Shown: piece after piece, positions 4,041 to 30,629 of the stretch
Numbering within the stretch: position 1 is the first letter of the stretch
Layout: each line of letters opens with the position of its first letter
Source of the DNA: Acidobacteriota bacterium
Lineage (GTDB): Bacteria > Acidobacteriota > Vicinamibacteria > Vicinamibacterales > CAVVIG01
Direction of reading: 5' to 3'
DNA: 35,215 nucleotides
NCBI GenBank assembly: GCA_028876655.1
Contig: JAGWRA010000245.1
Span: forward strand, 1-35,215
Made by a program: the position numbers and the translations under genes
The notes under the pieces: generated by a model
Databases searched by the model: none
What the model was told of the DNA's origin: nothing
The model's input: the letters and a program-made list of their open reading frames with translations, nothing else

Positions 4041-4991
4041 TCAGAATTCTCCCAGGCAGACGATTTCATCACGCAACACCACGCCGAACCGGGCCTGCAC
4101 TTCGCGGCGGCACAATTCGACGAGCGCCCGGATGTCGGCCGCGCGTGCCTGGCCGTCGTTCACGATGAAATTGCCGTGCGTCGGCGACACGCGGGCGCCG
4201 CCCATGGTCCGCCCCTTCAGCCCGGCGCGATCGACCAGCGCGCCCGCCGACGCCGGCATCCCTTCGGGTAACCGGTCGATCCCGGGATCCGGGTTCTGGA
4301 AGATGCAGCCCGCGCTCGGGCTGTCGAGCGGCTGCGTCCGCTTCCGGAACGCCAGTGATTGGCGCGCCACAGCCCGCAGCTGCTCCGGATCGCCCGCGCC
4401 GACCCGGAACACCGCCGACAGCAGCACCTCCCCGGTCCGCTGCAGCCGGCTTCGATCGTACCCGAATTCCATCGCGGACTGCGGGACGTCCTTCACGGCG
4501 CCCTCGCGATCGACCAGGCGCACCTCGGCGACCAGCTCGCCGAGCAGACGCCCGCCGTAGTGCGCGTTTCCGTGGATGCCCCCGCCGACCGTGCCGGGCG
4601 TGCCGGCCCAGGCTTCGAGACCCGCGAGCCCGCGGCCGACGGTCCAGCGCACGAGGCCGTTGATCGTGACGGCCGCATCCGCCCGGACCCGGCCCGGTCC
4701 TTCCTCGACGATCGCCCCGCCACGCGGACGGATGACGAGCCCGCGGATGCCGCGGTCGCCGATGAGGACGTTCGAGCCACCGCCGAGGATCGTCACGGAC
4801 TGGCCGGCCTCGTGCGCCAGCGTCAGCGCGCGGCGGACCTCCTCGGCCCCGTGTGCCTCGACCAGCCAGTCGGCAGGACCGCCGACCTTGAAGGTCGTGA
4901 ACGAGGCGAGCGGCACGTCGCGTCCGACCCGCGCGCGGCCGAAGGCCTCCACCAGTGCGGCGTCGAAGCGGGCGTCCGGCGCGCCGGTCAT
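4041..4991 (-). CDS. murB: UDP-N-acetylenolpyruvoylglucosamine reductase MurB
   Basis: MurB uses NADPH and FAD to reduce the MurA product to UDP-MurNAc. The 316-aa protein shows the FAD-binding module: TFKVGGPA (33-40), GGGSNVL (70-76) and GTPGTVGGGIHGNAH (130-144). FGYDRS (177-182) is a type II-like YxxxR region and Glu309 is the C-terminal acid. The catalytic Ser position (E. coli Ser229, in an AGS motif) is Cys229 here, in PSAGCIFQNP. ATG 4991 overlaps the pxpC stop (ATGA), which implies translational coupling. It works together with murA immediately downstream. Confidence 0.93.
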   Translation of the reverse strand: MTGAPDARFDAALVEAFGRARVGRDVPLASFTTFKVGGPADWLVEAHGAEEVRRALTLAHEAGQSVTILGGGSNVLIGDRGIRGLVIRPRGGAIVEEGPGRVRADAAVTINGLVRWTVGRGLAGLEAWAGTPGTVGGGIHGNAHYGGRLLGELVAEVRLVDREGAVKDVPQSAMEFGYDRSRLQRTGEVLLSAVFRVGAGDPEQLRAVARQSLAFRKRTQPLDSPSAGCIFQNPDPGIDRLPEGMPASAGALVDRAGLKGRTMGGARVSPTHGNFIVNDGQARAADIRALVELCRREVQARFGVVLRDEIVCLGEF

Positions 4992-12925: not shown

Positions 12926-12941
12926 TTCCCCTTGGGATTCC

Positions 12942-13080
12942 TCCTGATCTCCTGACCTCCTGCTCCATCCCTCCCGATCTCCTGACCTCCTGCTCCATCC
13001 CTCCTGATCTCCTGATCTCCTGCTTTACCCCTCCTGGTCTCCTGCGCTCCTGTGTGAAACTCCTGGCCTCCTGCTAAGCT
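12942..13080 (+). repeat. 30-bp imperfect tandem repeat array
   Basis: Units start at 12942, 12972 and 13002 (30 bp each), 13032 (29 bp) and 13061 (partial). The pattern is TCCTGATCT, then CCTGACCTCC, then TGCTCCATCCC; each unit holds about three sub-repeats of the form TCCTGAYCT. Units 1 and 2 differ at a single base, and later units diverge. No unit-sized unique spacers exist, so it is not a CRISPR array. The last unit ends in GCTAAGCT, just before the 84-aa ORF. The pyrimidine-rich strand bias is striking. Confidence 0.8.
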
Positions 13081-17908: not shown

Positions 17909-18571
17909 TCAGTCGGCCGGATCGTCAGGACCGGGCCTAACTCCCTCTGTATCAATGGTATCAAAGAGCGAGGACGGCCGGAACGAACGCCTGTGCAACG
18001 GCGAGTACCCGAACCGCGCCACCGCCTCGAGGTGGGTCCGGGTGGCGTACCCCTTGTGCCGGTCGAAGCCGTAGCGCGGGTCGGCGGCGTGATGCCCGGC
18101 CATTTCGCGGTCGCGCACGACCTTGGCGACGATCGACGCCGCCGCGATGGCCGTGCAGAGCCGATCGCCGTGCACGACGCTGCGCTGCGCCATCGGCAAC
18201 CCGGCCAGGTGGAACGCATCGATGAGGACGAGATCGGGCAGCGGCACGAGGGCGAGCACGGCCCGGCGCATCGCCTGCAGCGAGGCCCGGTGGATGTTGA
18301 GGCGGTCGATCTCTTCGGGGGTGGACGAGGCGACGGCCCAGGCGAGGGCCTGCTCCAGGATCTCGTCGTGCAGCCGCTCGCGCGCGCGGGCGGTCAGCAG
18401 CTTGGAATCGGCGATCCCGGAGATGCGGCAGCGGGCCGGCAGGACGACCGCGGCGGCCGTGACCGGACCGGCCAGGCAGCCGCGCCCGACTTCATCGACG
18501 CCGGCGATCCGGTCGAACCCGAACCGCCGGAGCGCGTTCTCGATCGTCCGGCGGGCACGCGGGCGGACCAT
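17909..18571 (-). CDS. rnhB: Ribonuclease HII
   Basis: RNase HII cleaves RNA in RNA-DNA hybrids and removes single ribonucleotides from DNA. The 220-aa protein contains GVDEVGRGCLAGPVTAAAV (24-42) with Asp26-Glu27, DSKLL (55-59), the third acid Asp118 in LVLIDAF, and the fourth, Asp154, in AAASIVAKVVRDREM. HKGYATRTHLEA is the usual C-terminal motif. Gene order rplS then rnhB is the classic bacterial arrangement, but here the 168-bp gap between them carries a dispersed palindromic repeat. ATG 18571 is chosen; the upstream region is not coding. Confidence 0.93.
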   Translation of the reverse strand: MVRPRARRTIENALRRFGFDRIAGVDEVGRGCLAGPVTAAAVVLPARCRISGIADSKLLTARARERLHDEILEQALAWAVASSTPEEIDRLNIHRASLQAMRRAVLALVPLPDLVLIDAFHLAGLPMAQRSVVHGDRLCTAIAAASIVAKVVRDREMAGHHAADPRYGFDRHKGYATRTHLEAVARFGYSPLHRRSFRPSSLFDTIDTEGVRPGPDDPAD

Positions 18572-18641
18572 GCGTTCACTCGCAACGGCGGAGGGCGGCC
18601 GGGCGTCGGCGGCTCCTCCGCCGGGCGCCGCCGCCTGAACC

Positions 18642-18733
18642 GCGTAACGGCCCGCACCGCGGGCCCGCGACCGGAACGGCGCGAGCCGTGTCGCGAGCGA
18701 GTGAAGGGAGCCGGGGCTCGGGGCGGAGCCCCG
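18642..18733 (-). repeat. Dispersed ~92-bp palindromic repeat, copy A
   Basis: Read on the minus strand, it runs from GGGGCTCCGCCCCGAGCCCC through CACTCGCTCGC, GGCTCGC and CCGTTCC to CGCGGGCCCGC and GTGCGGGCCGTT. The + strand at about 30006-30100 carries a close copy; by eye about 80 of 92 positions match, with one 2-base gap. Both copies sit in gaps between minus-strand genes but in opposite orientation relative to transcription. This fits a dispersed REP/MITE-like family. Confidence 0.75.
18712..18733 (-). terminator. GC-rich hairpin just after rplS (possible attenuator)
   Basis: A perfect 8-bp stem, CGGGGCTC / GAGCCCCG, with a 6-base loop lies 6 bases beyond the rplS stop on the minus strand. 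It has no U-tract, so it is not a standard intrinsic terminator. It could stabilise the 3' end of the ribosomal transcript or attenuate rnhB. It is also one end of the dispersed repeat. Confidence 0.35.
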
Positions 18734-18739
18734 ATTGAA

Positions 18740-19090
18740 CTAGAGTTCGTGCCGGGTCGTTTCCTTCATCCGGGCGGCCTTGCCGCGGCGCTCCCGCAGG
18801 AAGTACAGCTTCGCCCGGCGGACCTTGGCCGAACGGACGACGTCGATCTTCTGGATGCTCGGCGAGTGCAGCGGGAAGATGCGCTCGACGCCCTGCCCGA
18901 ACGACACCTTGCGCACCGTGAACGACGCCCGGGCGCCGCCGCGGTGCATGCCGATGATCGTTCCCTCGAACACCTGGATCCGCTCCTTGTCGCCCTCGCG
19001 GACCCGCACGTGCACGCGCACGGTGTCGCCGGCCTTCAGCTGCGGCCGCTCGCTGAGCTGCCCCTTCTCAAGCACTTCAATCGCGCCCAT
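18740..19090 (-). CDS. rplS: 50S ribosomal protein L19
   Basis: L19 lies at the 30S-50S interface. The 116-aa protein is of normal length. It shows [20 protein letters not shown] (19-38), the [22 protein letters not shown] core, [20 protein letters not shown] and [23 protein letters not shown] 19090 is fixed by AAGGAG at 19097-19102, 6 bases upstream, one of the best Shine-Dalgarno sites in the window. It overlaps the trmD 3' end by 14 bases. The frame stays open far upstream, but that part is trmD in another frame. Confidence 0.96.
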
Positions 19091-19838
19091 CTCCGTCTCC
19101 TTTTGTCCGTTCCGCGACGAGCTCCCGCAGGATCTCGCGTTCTTCCTCATCGAGCGCCGCCTGCGCGAGCAGGTCCGGCCGCCGCGCCAGCGTCCGCGCC
19201 ACGGCCTGGCGCTTGCGCCAGTGCCGCACCGCCGCGTGATTGCCCGATAACAGCACCTCGGGGACGTCCGCCCCCCGGAAGCTCGCCGGCCGCGTGTAGT
19301 GCGGGAAGTCGAGCAGCCCGCGCGCGAACGAATCGCCCGCCACCGACTGCTCGTCACCGACCACGCCAGGCACCAGCCGGGCCACCGCGTCGAGCACCAC
19401 CAGCGCCGGCAGCTCCCCGCCGCTCAGCACGTAGTCCCCGATCGAGATCTCGTCGGTCGCCAGCTGCTCGCGGACCCGCTCGTCGATCCCCTCGTAGCGT
19501 CCGCACACCAGCACGACGTGCGACAGCCGGCTGAGTCGCTCGGCCTCGGCCTGGCAGAACCGCCGGCCCTGCGGCGACATCAGCACCACGGCCTGCGGCC
19601 CGCCGTCCGGCCGGCCGGCCGCCTCGATCGCCCGGAAGAGCGGCTCGGGCTTCAGCACCATCCCCGGACCGCCGCCGTACGGCATGTCATCGACGACCCG
19701 GTGGCGGTCCTCCGTGAAGTCCCGCAGATCGTGCACCCGGATGTCGAGCACGCCGCGATCCATCGCCCGCCGGATGATCCCCTCGCCGAGCGGGCCCTCA
19801 ACCATCCGCGGGAAGATGGTGATGATGTCGAACTTCAC
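19077..19838 (-). CDS. trmD: tRNA (guanine-N1-)-methyltransferase TrmD
   Basis: TrmD makes m1G37 in tRNAs reading CNN-type codons and uses S-adenosylmethionine in a trefoil knot. With GTG 19838 the protein (~253 aa) begins (M)[11 protein letters not shown], as in homologues. An in-frame TTG at 19847 would add three residues. Motifs are [43 protein letters not shown] and [20 protein letters not shown], followed by [15 protein letters not shown] and [13 protein letters not shown]. It lies between rimM (185-bp gap) and rplS (overlap), in the conserved rpsP-rimM-trmD-rplS order. No strong Shine-Dalgarno is seen. Confidence 0.95.
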
Positions 19839-28742: not shown

Positions 28743-29999
28743 TCAGTCCCGCGGCGGCTCCAGCAGGCGCCGCACCATGTCGAGCCCCGCCTGCGCCGCC
28801 TGATACTTCACCTGTTCGCGCGCACCGATGAACCGGAAGGTCTTCACCATCTCCCGCTCGCGCAGCACCGCGGCGACCGCCACGGTGCCGACCGGCTTGG
28901 CCTCGGTGCCGCCGCCGGGGCCGGCGATGCCGGTGATGCCCACCCCGATGTCGACGCCCGCCCGGTCGCGGATGCCGCGCGCCATCGCCTGCGCGACCGG
29001 CTCGCTCACCGCGCCGTGCTCGTCGATCAGCGTCCCGGGCACACCGAGCAGTTCGGTCTTCGCGCGGTTGCTGTAGCAGACCACCCCACGCTCCACGTAG
29101 TCGGAGCTGCCGGCGACGTCGGTCAGCCGCGAGGCCATCAGGCCGCCGGTGCAGGACTCGGCGGTCGCAATCCACAGCCGTTCCGCCCGCAGCCGGTCGC
29201 CGACGACCTGCTCGAGCGTCCGCCCGTCGTCGCTGAACACCGCATCGCCGAGCACGGCCTCGAGCGCACCGACGGCGCCGTCGAGCGTGGCGGCGGCGCG
29301 TGCCGGGTCGTCCGACTGCAGCCGGAGATGCAGCTCGATCTGTCCGAGCGCTGCCAGGATGGTCGTGGCAATCGGCGGATCCCAGGCGAGCCACGGGCCG
29401 TAGACGGGCTGGGCCAGTTGATCGACGTGCGACTCGGCGCGGCCGGTGATCTTGATCACCCGGCGGTACACACGCCGGCCGCCCGCGCGCGGCTCCAGCC
29501 GCTCCGCGATCAGCGTGTCGAGAATCGGGAGGAGCTCGCGTGGCGGCCCCGGCAGGAGCAGCAGGCCGCCCGCGCCCCGTTCGATCCAGAGCCCCGGCGC
29601 CGTGCCGTTGGCGTTCGGCAGGACGACCGCCCCCTGCGGGACGAGCGCCTGCCGCCGGTTGATCTCGGGCATCTGCCAGCCGCGGCGTGCAAAACGCGCG
29701 CGGATGCGCTCGACGATCGTCTCGTCCTCGACGAGCGGCAGGCCGAGTACGTCGCGCACCGCCTCGCGCGTCAGGTCGTCGGCCGTCGGCCCCAGTCCGC
29801 CCGTCATCACGACCAGGTCCGCGTGCGCCAGGGCCTCGCGGATGGCCGCAGCCAGGTCGGCCAGGTCGTCGCCGACCACGGCCTTCGCCCGCACGTCGAT
29901 CCCGATGGCATTGAGCCGCTCGGTGATGGCGAGCGAGTTCGTGTCCATCCGCAGCGGCGTCAACAGCTCGCTGCCCACCGCGATGATCCGTGCGTTCAT
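28743..29999 (-). CDS. cinA: CinA-like protein: COG1058 domain plus nicotinamide-nucleotide amidase
   Basis: CinA combines a MoCF-like ADP-ribose/NAD pyrophosphatase domain with a PncC-type NMN deamidase and acts in pyridine-nucleotide salvage. The 418-aa protein has IIAVGSELLTP (5-15), MDTNSLAITERL (18-29), VVMTGGLGPTADDLTREAV, LPGPPRELLPIL and the C-terminal amidase motifs ATAESCTGGLMASRLTD and GITGIAGPGGGTEAKPVGTV. ATG 29999 is preceded by a GGAG about 12 bases upstream that lies in the loop of a perfect hairpin (30006-30022), part of a dispersed repeat. The repeat separates it from pgpA. Confidence 0.93.
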   Translation of the reverse strand: MNARIIAVGSELLTPLRMDTNSLAITERLNAIGIDVRAKAVVGDDLADLAAAIREALAHADLVVMTGGLGPTADDLTREAVRDVLGLPLVEDETIVERIRARFARRGWQMPEINRRQALVPQGAVVLPNANGTAPGLWIERGAGGLLLLPGPPRELLPILDTLIAERLEPRAGGRRVYRRVIKITGRAESHVDQLAQPVYGPWLAWDPPIATTILAALGQIELHLRLQSDDPARAAATLDGAVGALEAVLGDAVFSDDGRTLEQVVGDRLRAERLWIATAESCTGGLMASRLTDVAGSSDYVERGVVCYSNRAKTELLGVPGTLIDEHGAVSEPVAQAMARGIRDRAGVDIGVGITGIAGPGGGTEAKPVGTVAVAAVLREREMVKTFRFIGAREQVKYQAAQAGLDMVRRLLEPPRD

Positions 30000-30005
30000 G
30001 TTCGA

Positions 30006-30100
30006 GCGGGGCTCCGCCCCGCACCCCGGCTCACTGCACTCGCTCGCCTCACGCGGCTCGCTCCGTTCCGTTCGCGGGCCCGCCGTGCGGGCCGTTGCGC
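30006..30100 (+). repeat. Dispersed ~92-bp palindromic repeat, copy B
   Basis: This close copy of the element at 18642-18733 lies in the cinA-pgpA gap and reads on the + strand. It starts with a perfect hairpin GCGGGGC-TCC-GCCCCGC (30006-30022). CGCTCGC, GGCTCGCTCCGTTCC, then GCGGGCCCGC and GTGCGGGCCGTTGCGC follow. The match to copy A includes runs of more than ten identical bases and one 2-base indel. No ORF is supported here. Confidence 0.75.
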
Positions 30101-30118
30101 TCCAGGCTCCGCGCGGTC

Positions 30119-30586
30119 CTACCGCCGCACCGCCTGCAGCACCGGCAGCGCCCAGACCGCCAACCGCAGGAGCAGGTTGCCGTACACCGCCGCCATCGCA
30201 TCGTCGGCCATGACACCGAGCCCGCCGTGCAGGTGTTCGAGCCGGTTGGCCGGGAACGGCTTCACCACGTCCATGGCCCGGAAGATGACGAAGCCCGCCA
30301 GGACGCCGGGCCAGCCCACCGGAATGCCCCAGAGCGTGATGAGCATCCCCATCACCTCGTCAATGACCACCGGGCCCGGATCCTCCATCCCGAAGTGCCG
30401 CTCGGCCAGCGTGCCGCTCCAGGTGCCGAGCGCGAACAGCACGCCGATGGCAATCGCCTCGGGGAGCCGGCCCTGGCCAACCAGGTAGAAGACGACCAGC
30501 CCGGCCGCCGAGCCGAACGTGCCCGGGGCGAACGGGATGTCGCCGACATGGAAGAAGGTCGCGATGAAGACGGCGAGACGTGTCAT
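30119..30586 (-). CDS. pgpA: Phosphatidylglycerophosphatase A PgpA
   Basis: PgpA dephosphorylates phosphatidylglycerol phosphate in the inner membrane. The 155-aa protein starts MTRLAVFIATFFHVG (ATG 30586). An in-frame ATG at 30625 would add 13 basic residues with no family support. Motifs are IPFAPGTFGSAAGL, DPGPVVIDEVMGMLI, FRAMDVVKPFPANRLEHL and HGGLGVMADDAMAAVYGNL, including the acidic residues of the PgpA active site. Several hydrophobic segments are present. It complements plsY and gpsA as a phospholipid gene in the same region. Confidence 0.93.
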   Translation of the reverse strand: MTRLAVFIATFFHVGDIPFAPGTFGSAAGLVVFYLVGQGRLPEAIAIGVLFALGTWSGTLAERHFGMEDPGPVVIDEVMGMLITLWGIPVGWPGVLAGFVIFRAMDVVKPFPANRLEHLHGGLGVMADDAMAAVYGNLLLRLAVWALPVLQAVRR

Positions 30587-30629
30587 GAGTCGAGGCCGTG
30601 GACGGGCGCCGGTCGGCCGGCGCATCGGA

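Follow-up and report, generated by a model that had tools for sequence, protein, structure and literature searches.

BOX, ERIC and similar repeats belong to the same size class as the element described here and occupy intergenic or intragenic positions. REPINs are of similar length, with two end hairpins within about 90 bp, and IS200/IS605 insertion occurs without target duplication. According to passages of two reports, Rickettsia palindromic elements (RPEs) are short palindromic mobile repeats of about 150 bp that reside in frame inside unrelated protein genes, and the CGTC-tagged kinds of repeat apparently lack a dedicated transposase (PMC10969869, PMC3733652). REPINs and REPs with their RAYT are described, in three reports, as hairpin pairs at close distance that form clusters, are mostly intergenic and often lie near gene ends (PMC3733652, PMC6006769, PMC3116915). 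For IS200/IS605, a section of one of these reports describes hairpin ends and a fixed left-flank motif that is chosen by base interactions near the hairpin foot (PMC6006769).

The repeat analyzed in this study acts like an RPE or a REPIN/REP. Similar to RPEs, it resides in frame within unrelated protein genes as well as between genes. Different from RPEs, it is about 90 bp long with three stems, is hosted by a different phylum, carries no CGTC at its left foot and has its left end anchored to gene edges; the likeness described here is one of features. BOX and ERIC, which are named in a passage of PMC10969869, are likewise similar as short repeats by description. Different from REPINs, the end hairpins of the element are unlike each other, no GTAG/CGTC foot and no RAYT match in the genome were found, and the core of the element is itself a conserved imperfect hairpin. 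Similar to IS200/IS605, the element has hairpins and a leader motif, and no duplication was seen at the one clean pair of empty and filled sites; different from IS200/IS605, no Y1 enzyme was matched in its genome and its pairing bases lie within the stem itself.

An open-access literature search found no such family described in Vicinamibacterales. The family is an RPE-like case at a great distance from Rickettsia, with inserts in frame in a replication protein (HolB) and a vitamin B6 protein (PdxJ), and provides a genome pair that differs at named sites. It also raises the question of what moves a palindromic repeat in genomes without a Y1 transposase match, a question that a passage of PMC3733652 poses for CGTC-tagged repeats. 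The reading that we favor, with a probability of about 0.6 for the statement as a whole, is that the repeat is a non-autonomous element that would be moved as a folded single strand by a trans-acting enzyme.

Two Copies in the Window

The initial annotation had described two near-identical copies of a palindromic repeat, in opposite orientation relative to transcription. In the window, which is the whole 35,215-nt stretch of DNA that was analyzed, the pair is real: it accounts for the two longest inverted repeats, 18687-18740/30000-30053 (54 nt, 85% complementary) and 18642-18691/30051-30100 (50 nt, 90%), well above the next pair, which was only 72% over 43 nt. The sequence blocks quoted in that annotation are present. 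At 85–90% likeness, "near-identical" is a slightly strong wording. The orientation was as described, with copy A on the strand opposite to its neighboring genes and copy B on the same strand as its neighbors. The features are as follows.

30006..30101, plus strand: copy A, flanked by cinA and pgpA (both minus)
30006..30022, plus strand: copy A, left hairpin with a 7-bp stem and the triloop TCC, outer pairs GC/GC
30029..30075, plus strand: copy A, imperfect hairpin of the core, with mismatches between two-bp Watson-Crick steps
30077..30093, plus strand: copy A, right hairpin with a 7-bp stem and the triloop CGT
30094..30101, plus strand: tail of copy A, GTTGCGCT; the commonest form is GTTACGCT; elsewhere it is the linker joining tandem units
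18641..18734, minus strand: copy B, flanked by rplS (L19) and rnhB (both minus)
18718..18734, minus strand: left hairpin of copy B, outer pairs TC/GA
18667..18711, minus strand: core imperfect hairpin of copy B
18649..18665, minus strand: right hairpin of copy B
28743..29999, minus strand: cinA (PF02464), start codon 8 nt from the GGGG of copy A
30119..30625, minus strand: pgpA (PF04608), its end and the right end of copy A being 17 nt apart
18740..19357, minus strand: rplS (ribosomal protein L19; PF01245), stop codon 7 nt from the GGGG of copy B
17909..18571, minus strand: rnhB (RNase HII; PF01351), downstream of copy B

A covariance model built from 47 copies, copy A included, scored copy A at 99.7 bits (30002-30098) and copy B at 101 bits (18644-18738). 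The Rfam models gave no match in the window at gathering score. The first-listed direct-repeat family of the window is a tandem array of CTCCTGATCTCCTGACCTCCTG-type units at 12937-13052.

Family Size and Distribution

The genome from which the window was taken (G000) consists of 281 contigs with a total of 4.19 Mb and is 97.2% complete. Its closest cinA relatives place this uncultured host in Vicinamibacterales (Acidobacteriota). A genome-wide copy search had been named beforehand as a check, and with copy A as the query it expanded the family far beyond two members: 51 matched pieces were found at E ≤ 10, and for 45 of these E was ≤ 1.1e-11. The exact block CACTCGCTCGC occurred 45 times, compared with 5 times for a backward-read control. 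After 150 of its 10,825 first-look candidates had been scored, the covariance model identified at least 57 copies at E ≤ 0.01; the roughly nine places matched by this model alone (in C70, C80, C104, C124, C208, C235, and C245) were left out of the context counts below. G000 holds about 45–57 copies, which are dispersed, mostly intergenic and partly in tandem clusters.

Copy A was matched at E ≤ 0.001 in 15 of 60 genomes of Vicinamibacterales, its own included. A second subfamily, taken from genome G011, was matched in 20 of the 60 at E ≤ 1e-6, and 21 of the 60, again including G000, were positive by either query; the match counts per genome are lower bounds, given that few candidates were scored. 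A search of phages or plasmids with the element gave no match at E ≤ 0.001.

Three Conserved Stems

The unit is about 86–95 bp long. From 47 aligned copies, 36 of G000 and 11 of the same-genus genome G001 (alignment A1), RNAalifold proposed three stems, which are in order a left hairpin (7 bp, triloop), an imperfect core hairpin of five two-bp steps with mismatches between them, and a right hairpin (7 bp, triloop). A1 was made without truncated copies, internal tandem copies, the divergent copy of L073 and the first copies of L036 and L066 (contig end). Compared with shuffles, which do not keep the relatedness of the copies, A1 had 98.2% of its 1126 stem cells paired (90.8% shuffled), two-sided change at 9 of 24 pairs (5.5 shuffled) and in 83 cells (21.4 shuffled), and a covariation score of 0.211 (0.075 shuffled); none of 500 shuffles reached any of these four values. 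The count of further pair types in A1 was 17 and showed no excess over the shuffles (17.6; 403 of 500). Versions of the stems that were slid along A1 were 29–43% paired. The three stems are conserved with compensatory change. Because single-copy DNA folds were not clearly better than those of shuffled sequences (copy A strands, z of -0.05 and 0.62; copy B strands, z of -2.19 and -1.83), the structure claim rests on covariation.

The second subfamily has the same fold with a different core sequence. Its alignment (A2) comprised 21 copies, 20 of G011 and G028 plus one of G000, and excluded L249 and L264. In addition, a divergent form with a different left hairpin was found at L073 and at the beginning of L065. 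The left hairpin (GGGGC-TCC-GCCCC) and the right hairpin (GGCCCGC-CGT-GCGGGCC) are not inverted copies of each other.

By eye, a second GC-rich hairpin family of about 85 bp, TCGCCTTCG...GCTTCGGCGGAGCTCGCCGAAGC...GCGAAGGCGG, appears to be nested between the ACCC and the CGGCTCACTGC of the element in the downstream part of the arrays at L033, L036, L037 (from about 5775), and L041. Also by eye, about half of the 20 G011 copies (a set with members such as L259 2826, L345 1218, and L346 1255) carry an extra tail of about 45 nt past the right hairpin, GCCCGTTATGCGGAACGAG...ATTCTCGTTTCGACC, and the remaining ones end sharply near GCGCGCCTA, which gives a short and a long form.

Mobility of the Family

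The repeat family is mobile, which we regard as practically certain. Occupancy differed between G000 and G001 at 8 of 11 scored orthologous sites; the comparison covered 1.05 Mb of G001, which is about 82% complete. Seven sites were filled in G000 and empty in G001, i.e., cinA/pgpA, tRNA-Thr (where the array has three copies), the regions 5' of recA (L073) and of an ABC transporter gene (L042), a trpG/trpE-like site (L059), the L035 gene, and pdxJ. The site upstream of ribBA was filled in G001 and empty in G000, and L19/rnhB, holB and the site upstream of an FtsW/RodA gene (L054) were filled in both. Synteny with G001 was left unscored at L033, L065, and L067, of which L065 did not align. At the window junctions, the element was found in none of 10 other genomes at cinA and in none of 10 at L19. 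Moreover, 12 of 20 G011 copies, which were picked from the best-matching places, were identical over 86 nt at unrelated sites with unrelated flanks.

The ends had also been proposed for a check of target duplications. At L073, the one pair of empty and filled sites clean enough to exclude a duplication, none was found: the flanks run on directly beside the insert, and the leader differs by 3 nt. The other pairs are too diverged. Target duplications were also not seen by eye in the short G011 copies.

The L073 copy (4136-4229) lies between the apparent promoter and the Shine-Dalgarno sequence of recA (PF00154) and uses the divergent left hairpin GGCGGGG...CCCCGCC. Judging from this position, an effect on recA expression is conceivable.

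Anchoring at Gene Edges

In 19 of 33 clean first copies of G000, no more than 10 nt separated the left hairpin from a gene edge, compared with 7.0 expected from uniform placement (none of 20,000 simulations); the right end was equally near in 3 of the same 33. The edges were start codons of genes on the opposite strand, stop codons of genes on the same strand, and tRNA 3' ends; four tRNA genes were followed by copies at 9–10 nt. Genes were called with ARAGORN and a self-trained gene finder. Of the 45 first copies, 12 were left out because a called gene overlapped them, one side was missing or the distance exceeded 400 nt. In other genera, the left hairpin was within 10 nt of an edge in 15 of 37 copies (4.3 expected) and the right side in one; these 37 were from a set of 42 copies of G011, G013, G028, G037, and G038 in best-matching rather than random places. 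By eye, the arrays look polar, with the gene-adjacent copy being the most intact and followed by remnants.

The initial annotation had also stated that the copies are not simply operon terminators, and this was borne out. Copies occur in all four combinations of flanking gene orientation, i.e., in sense, antisense, convergent and divergent settings, as well as inside coding sequences, and an operon terminator was rejected on these grounds. These same settings, the difference in occupancy between the sister genomes and the lack of an Rfam match in the window argue against a structured RNA or terminator that is kept for its function in transcripts. The strong covariation of the stems, the copies just past the four tRNA genes and an excess of antisense over sense copies in co-directional gene pairs (18 vs. 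6, p 0.02) would fit such an RNA, which we nevertheless hold to be the least probable of the readings weighed here.

In some other genera, unrelated AT-rich heptad-type repeats were seen by eye to abut the start or stop codon at the same junctions, at 4 of 10 for the cinA start (L192, L196, L198, and L205) and at least 2 of 10 for the L19 stop (L193 and L195). Therefore, the cinA and L19 junctions may be general landing sites for repeats.

Outer Base Pairs and Leader

The outer two pairs of the left hairpin are formed by the two nucleotides before GGGG and the two nucleotides after GCCCC. Both were Watson-Crick pairs in 39 of 45 first-in-array copies, compared with 15.0 by permutation, and the pair types were TC/GA (23), GT/AC (8), CC/GG (3), AT/AT (2), GC/GC (2), and CT/AG (1). 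For G001 alone, the result was not significant (10 of 15 vs. 8.1 expected, p 0.08). The first-copy tests set aside seven internal copies. Internal tandem copies kept both outer pairs in 2 of 6 cases (Fisher p 0.010), or in 3 of 7 (p 0.020) with L060:4109, a member of the other subfamily that seems to have been inserted separately. The difference between 39 of 45 first copies and 2 of 6 internal ones suggests that the unit is duplicated without its outer bases. An argument to the contrary comes from G011, where the outer pair was GT/AC in 20 of 20 copies and the leader was ACGT in 19 of 20, a near-invariance that is expected if the element carries both.

The leader T[CT]A was found at positions -6 to -4 before GGGG in 26 of 45 copies, compared with 1.6% of nearby upstream positions. 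By site, it was present at 14 of 28 start codons, 5 of 9 stop codons, 4 of 4 tRNAs and 3 of 4 in-gene loci. TCA and TTA are stop codons read backwards; an antisense stop codon as the source of the leader is weakened by its presence at the tRNA and in-gene loci. The leader, similar to the outer pairs, could have come from the target or could be carried by the element: L035 and L073 lean toward a host-derived leader and G011 leans against it.

In one further reading, the family would be distinct from REP/RAYT and two target bases would complete the left hairpin; the insertion site would then be picked by the flank pairing with the element, and the mover would be of an enzyme class new to such repeats. 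Such target pairing would explain why the outer pairs covary in first copies but hardly do so in internal tandem copies. We consider it quite unlikely.

A spread without any dedicated enzyme, via replication-associated template switching or gene conversion among hairpin-forming sequences, is also held to be unlikely. It would fit the arrays of tandem units, the recurrence of left-hairpin variants inside one array, mosaic or nested units (by eye) and the unrelated repeats that fill the same junctions in some other genera. However, the discrete ends, the conserved leader and the 12 identical G011 copies at unrelated sites suggest a specific process.

Copies in Frame Inside Protein-Coding Genes

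Four of 45 first-in-array loci were wholly within a called gene and were read through in frame. The hosts are:

In-frame host 1: DNA polymerase III delta' (HolB-type) protein, PF13177
In-frame host 2: PdxJ, PF03740
In-frame host 3: HGSNAT/acyltransferase protein, PF07786
In-frame host 4: S58 peptidase, PF03576, with two tandem units, the second partial

In addition, the last 32 or so residues of a glycosyltransferase are coded by the element. HolB is essential. Its insert was present in G000 and G001, with two residue differences between their insert peptides, and absent from all 14 other homologs compared (16 loci were fetched, and 20 genomes have HolB). The PdxJ insert was found in G000 only, among 16 loci fetched from 21 genomes. 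Homologs without the insert were thus found by comparison for pdxJ and holB, and also for the L035 gene. The element was read in both sense and antisense and in more than one frame, and copy A is open in 5 of 6 frames. In holB of G010 (L310), the same HolB loop holds a different repeat of GGTTCAGGGTTC units, which is also in frame.

Search for a Mobilizing Enzyme

A cognate REP-associated transposase, which had been suggested as a check, did not turn up in G000: Y1_Tnp (PF01797) was not matched at E ≤ 0.01, nor was the REP transposase model REP_Tyr_transpos (NF047646) at E ≤ 0.1, in a genome whose 97.2% completeness leaves room for a gap. Y1_Tnp also had no match in the element carriers G003, G011, and G047, the last being only 74% complete. 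Across the order, Y1_Tnp was matched in 43 of 60 genomes, including the sister G001, and was not associated with the element (14 of 21 positive vs. 29 of 39 negative genomes, p 0.56, with positives counted by the union of both queries, 21 of 60, G000 included); with the copy-A query alone, the numbers were 11 of 15 and 32 of 45. The one Y1 gene found in G001 (L214, about 18620-19710) is bracketed, by eye, by its own unrelated inverted repeat, GGTCAGATCTTG..TTCTTGCA. It resembles in this respect the Y1 genes flanked by TIR that are described in a passage of PMC3733652.

The sequence marks of REPs were not found, either. GTAG or CGTC just before the left hairpin occurred in 0 of 47 copies of A1 and 0 of 21 of A2, with the right end read by eye only. 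The CnGA foot, which a section of PMC6006769 reports for rare class 3 Y1 proteins in Acidobacteria, was also absent from all 47 and all 21. Anywhere in the unit, GTAG/CTAC was found in 1 of 47 (A1) and 6 of 21 (A2) and CGTC/GACG in 10 of 47 and 5 of 21, respectively. Paired inverted REPs were not found, as the left and right hairpins differ. Because the left-foot tag, paired identical REPs and the enzyme were all looked for and not found, the element is not filed as a REP or REPIN.

These results bear on a REPIN or REP moved by a RAYT (Y1 transposase) that was lost from the genome or lies in an assembly gap. The end hairpins within about 90 bp, the tandem clusters and the architecture like that of single-stranded DNA elements resemble REPINs, and Y1 matches are common in the order. 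However, the lack of matches in G000 and in three other carriers, the lack of an association between Y1 and the element, the unrelated repeat around the G001 gene and the missing feet make this reading unlikely, and a RAYT is not supported as the mover in G000.

A classical MITE from a double-strand (DDE) transposon was judged improbable. The element is short, non-coding and mobile and has an AT-containing leader, as such a MITE might. Its ends, however, are two different hairpins and not terminal inverted repeats, no target duplication was present at L073, and the fetched copies did not reveal a larger unit that shares these ends. Of the initial label "REP- or MITE-type," the parts that stand are therefore that the repeat is dispersed, mobile, palindromic, mostly intergenic, partly tandem and not bound to one gene orientation; the marks of either class that were looked for were not found.

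RVT_1 (reverse transcriptase) was matched in 8 of 21 genomes with the element and 8 of 39 without it (same union of queries, p 0.22), which gives no clear support. One reverse transcriptase domain match was noted in G000 (G000:C251:9890-10552, RVT_1, E 3e-25).

Proposed Movement as a Folded Single Strand

In the favored reading of a non-autonomous element, one strand would fold into the left triloop hairpin, the long imperfect core hairpin and the right triloop hairpin, and a trans-acting recombinase or transposase would most likely recognize the folded single strand. The strand would then be inserted immediately 3' of a short AT-rich leader (in G000, T-C/T-A 4–6 nt before GGGG), and the target would not be duplicated. 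Because AT-rich leaders would be available beside start codons, stop codons and tRNA ends, most copies would come to lie at gene edges. Copies within genes would survive where they are read through in frame, which the GC-rich unit would allow because it has few stop codons. New copies or local duplications may join next to the gene, with older, decaying ones farther away, so that the arrays would grow with a polarity.

Among the cinA relatives, one contig (L088, CALQBJ020000059.1) of a metagenome-assembled genome labeled Bifidobacterium breve was found to encode a Vicinamibacterales-like CinA with 62% identity, with PgpA apparently upstream (by eye); this genome is probably mislabeled.
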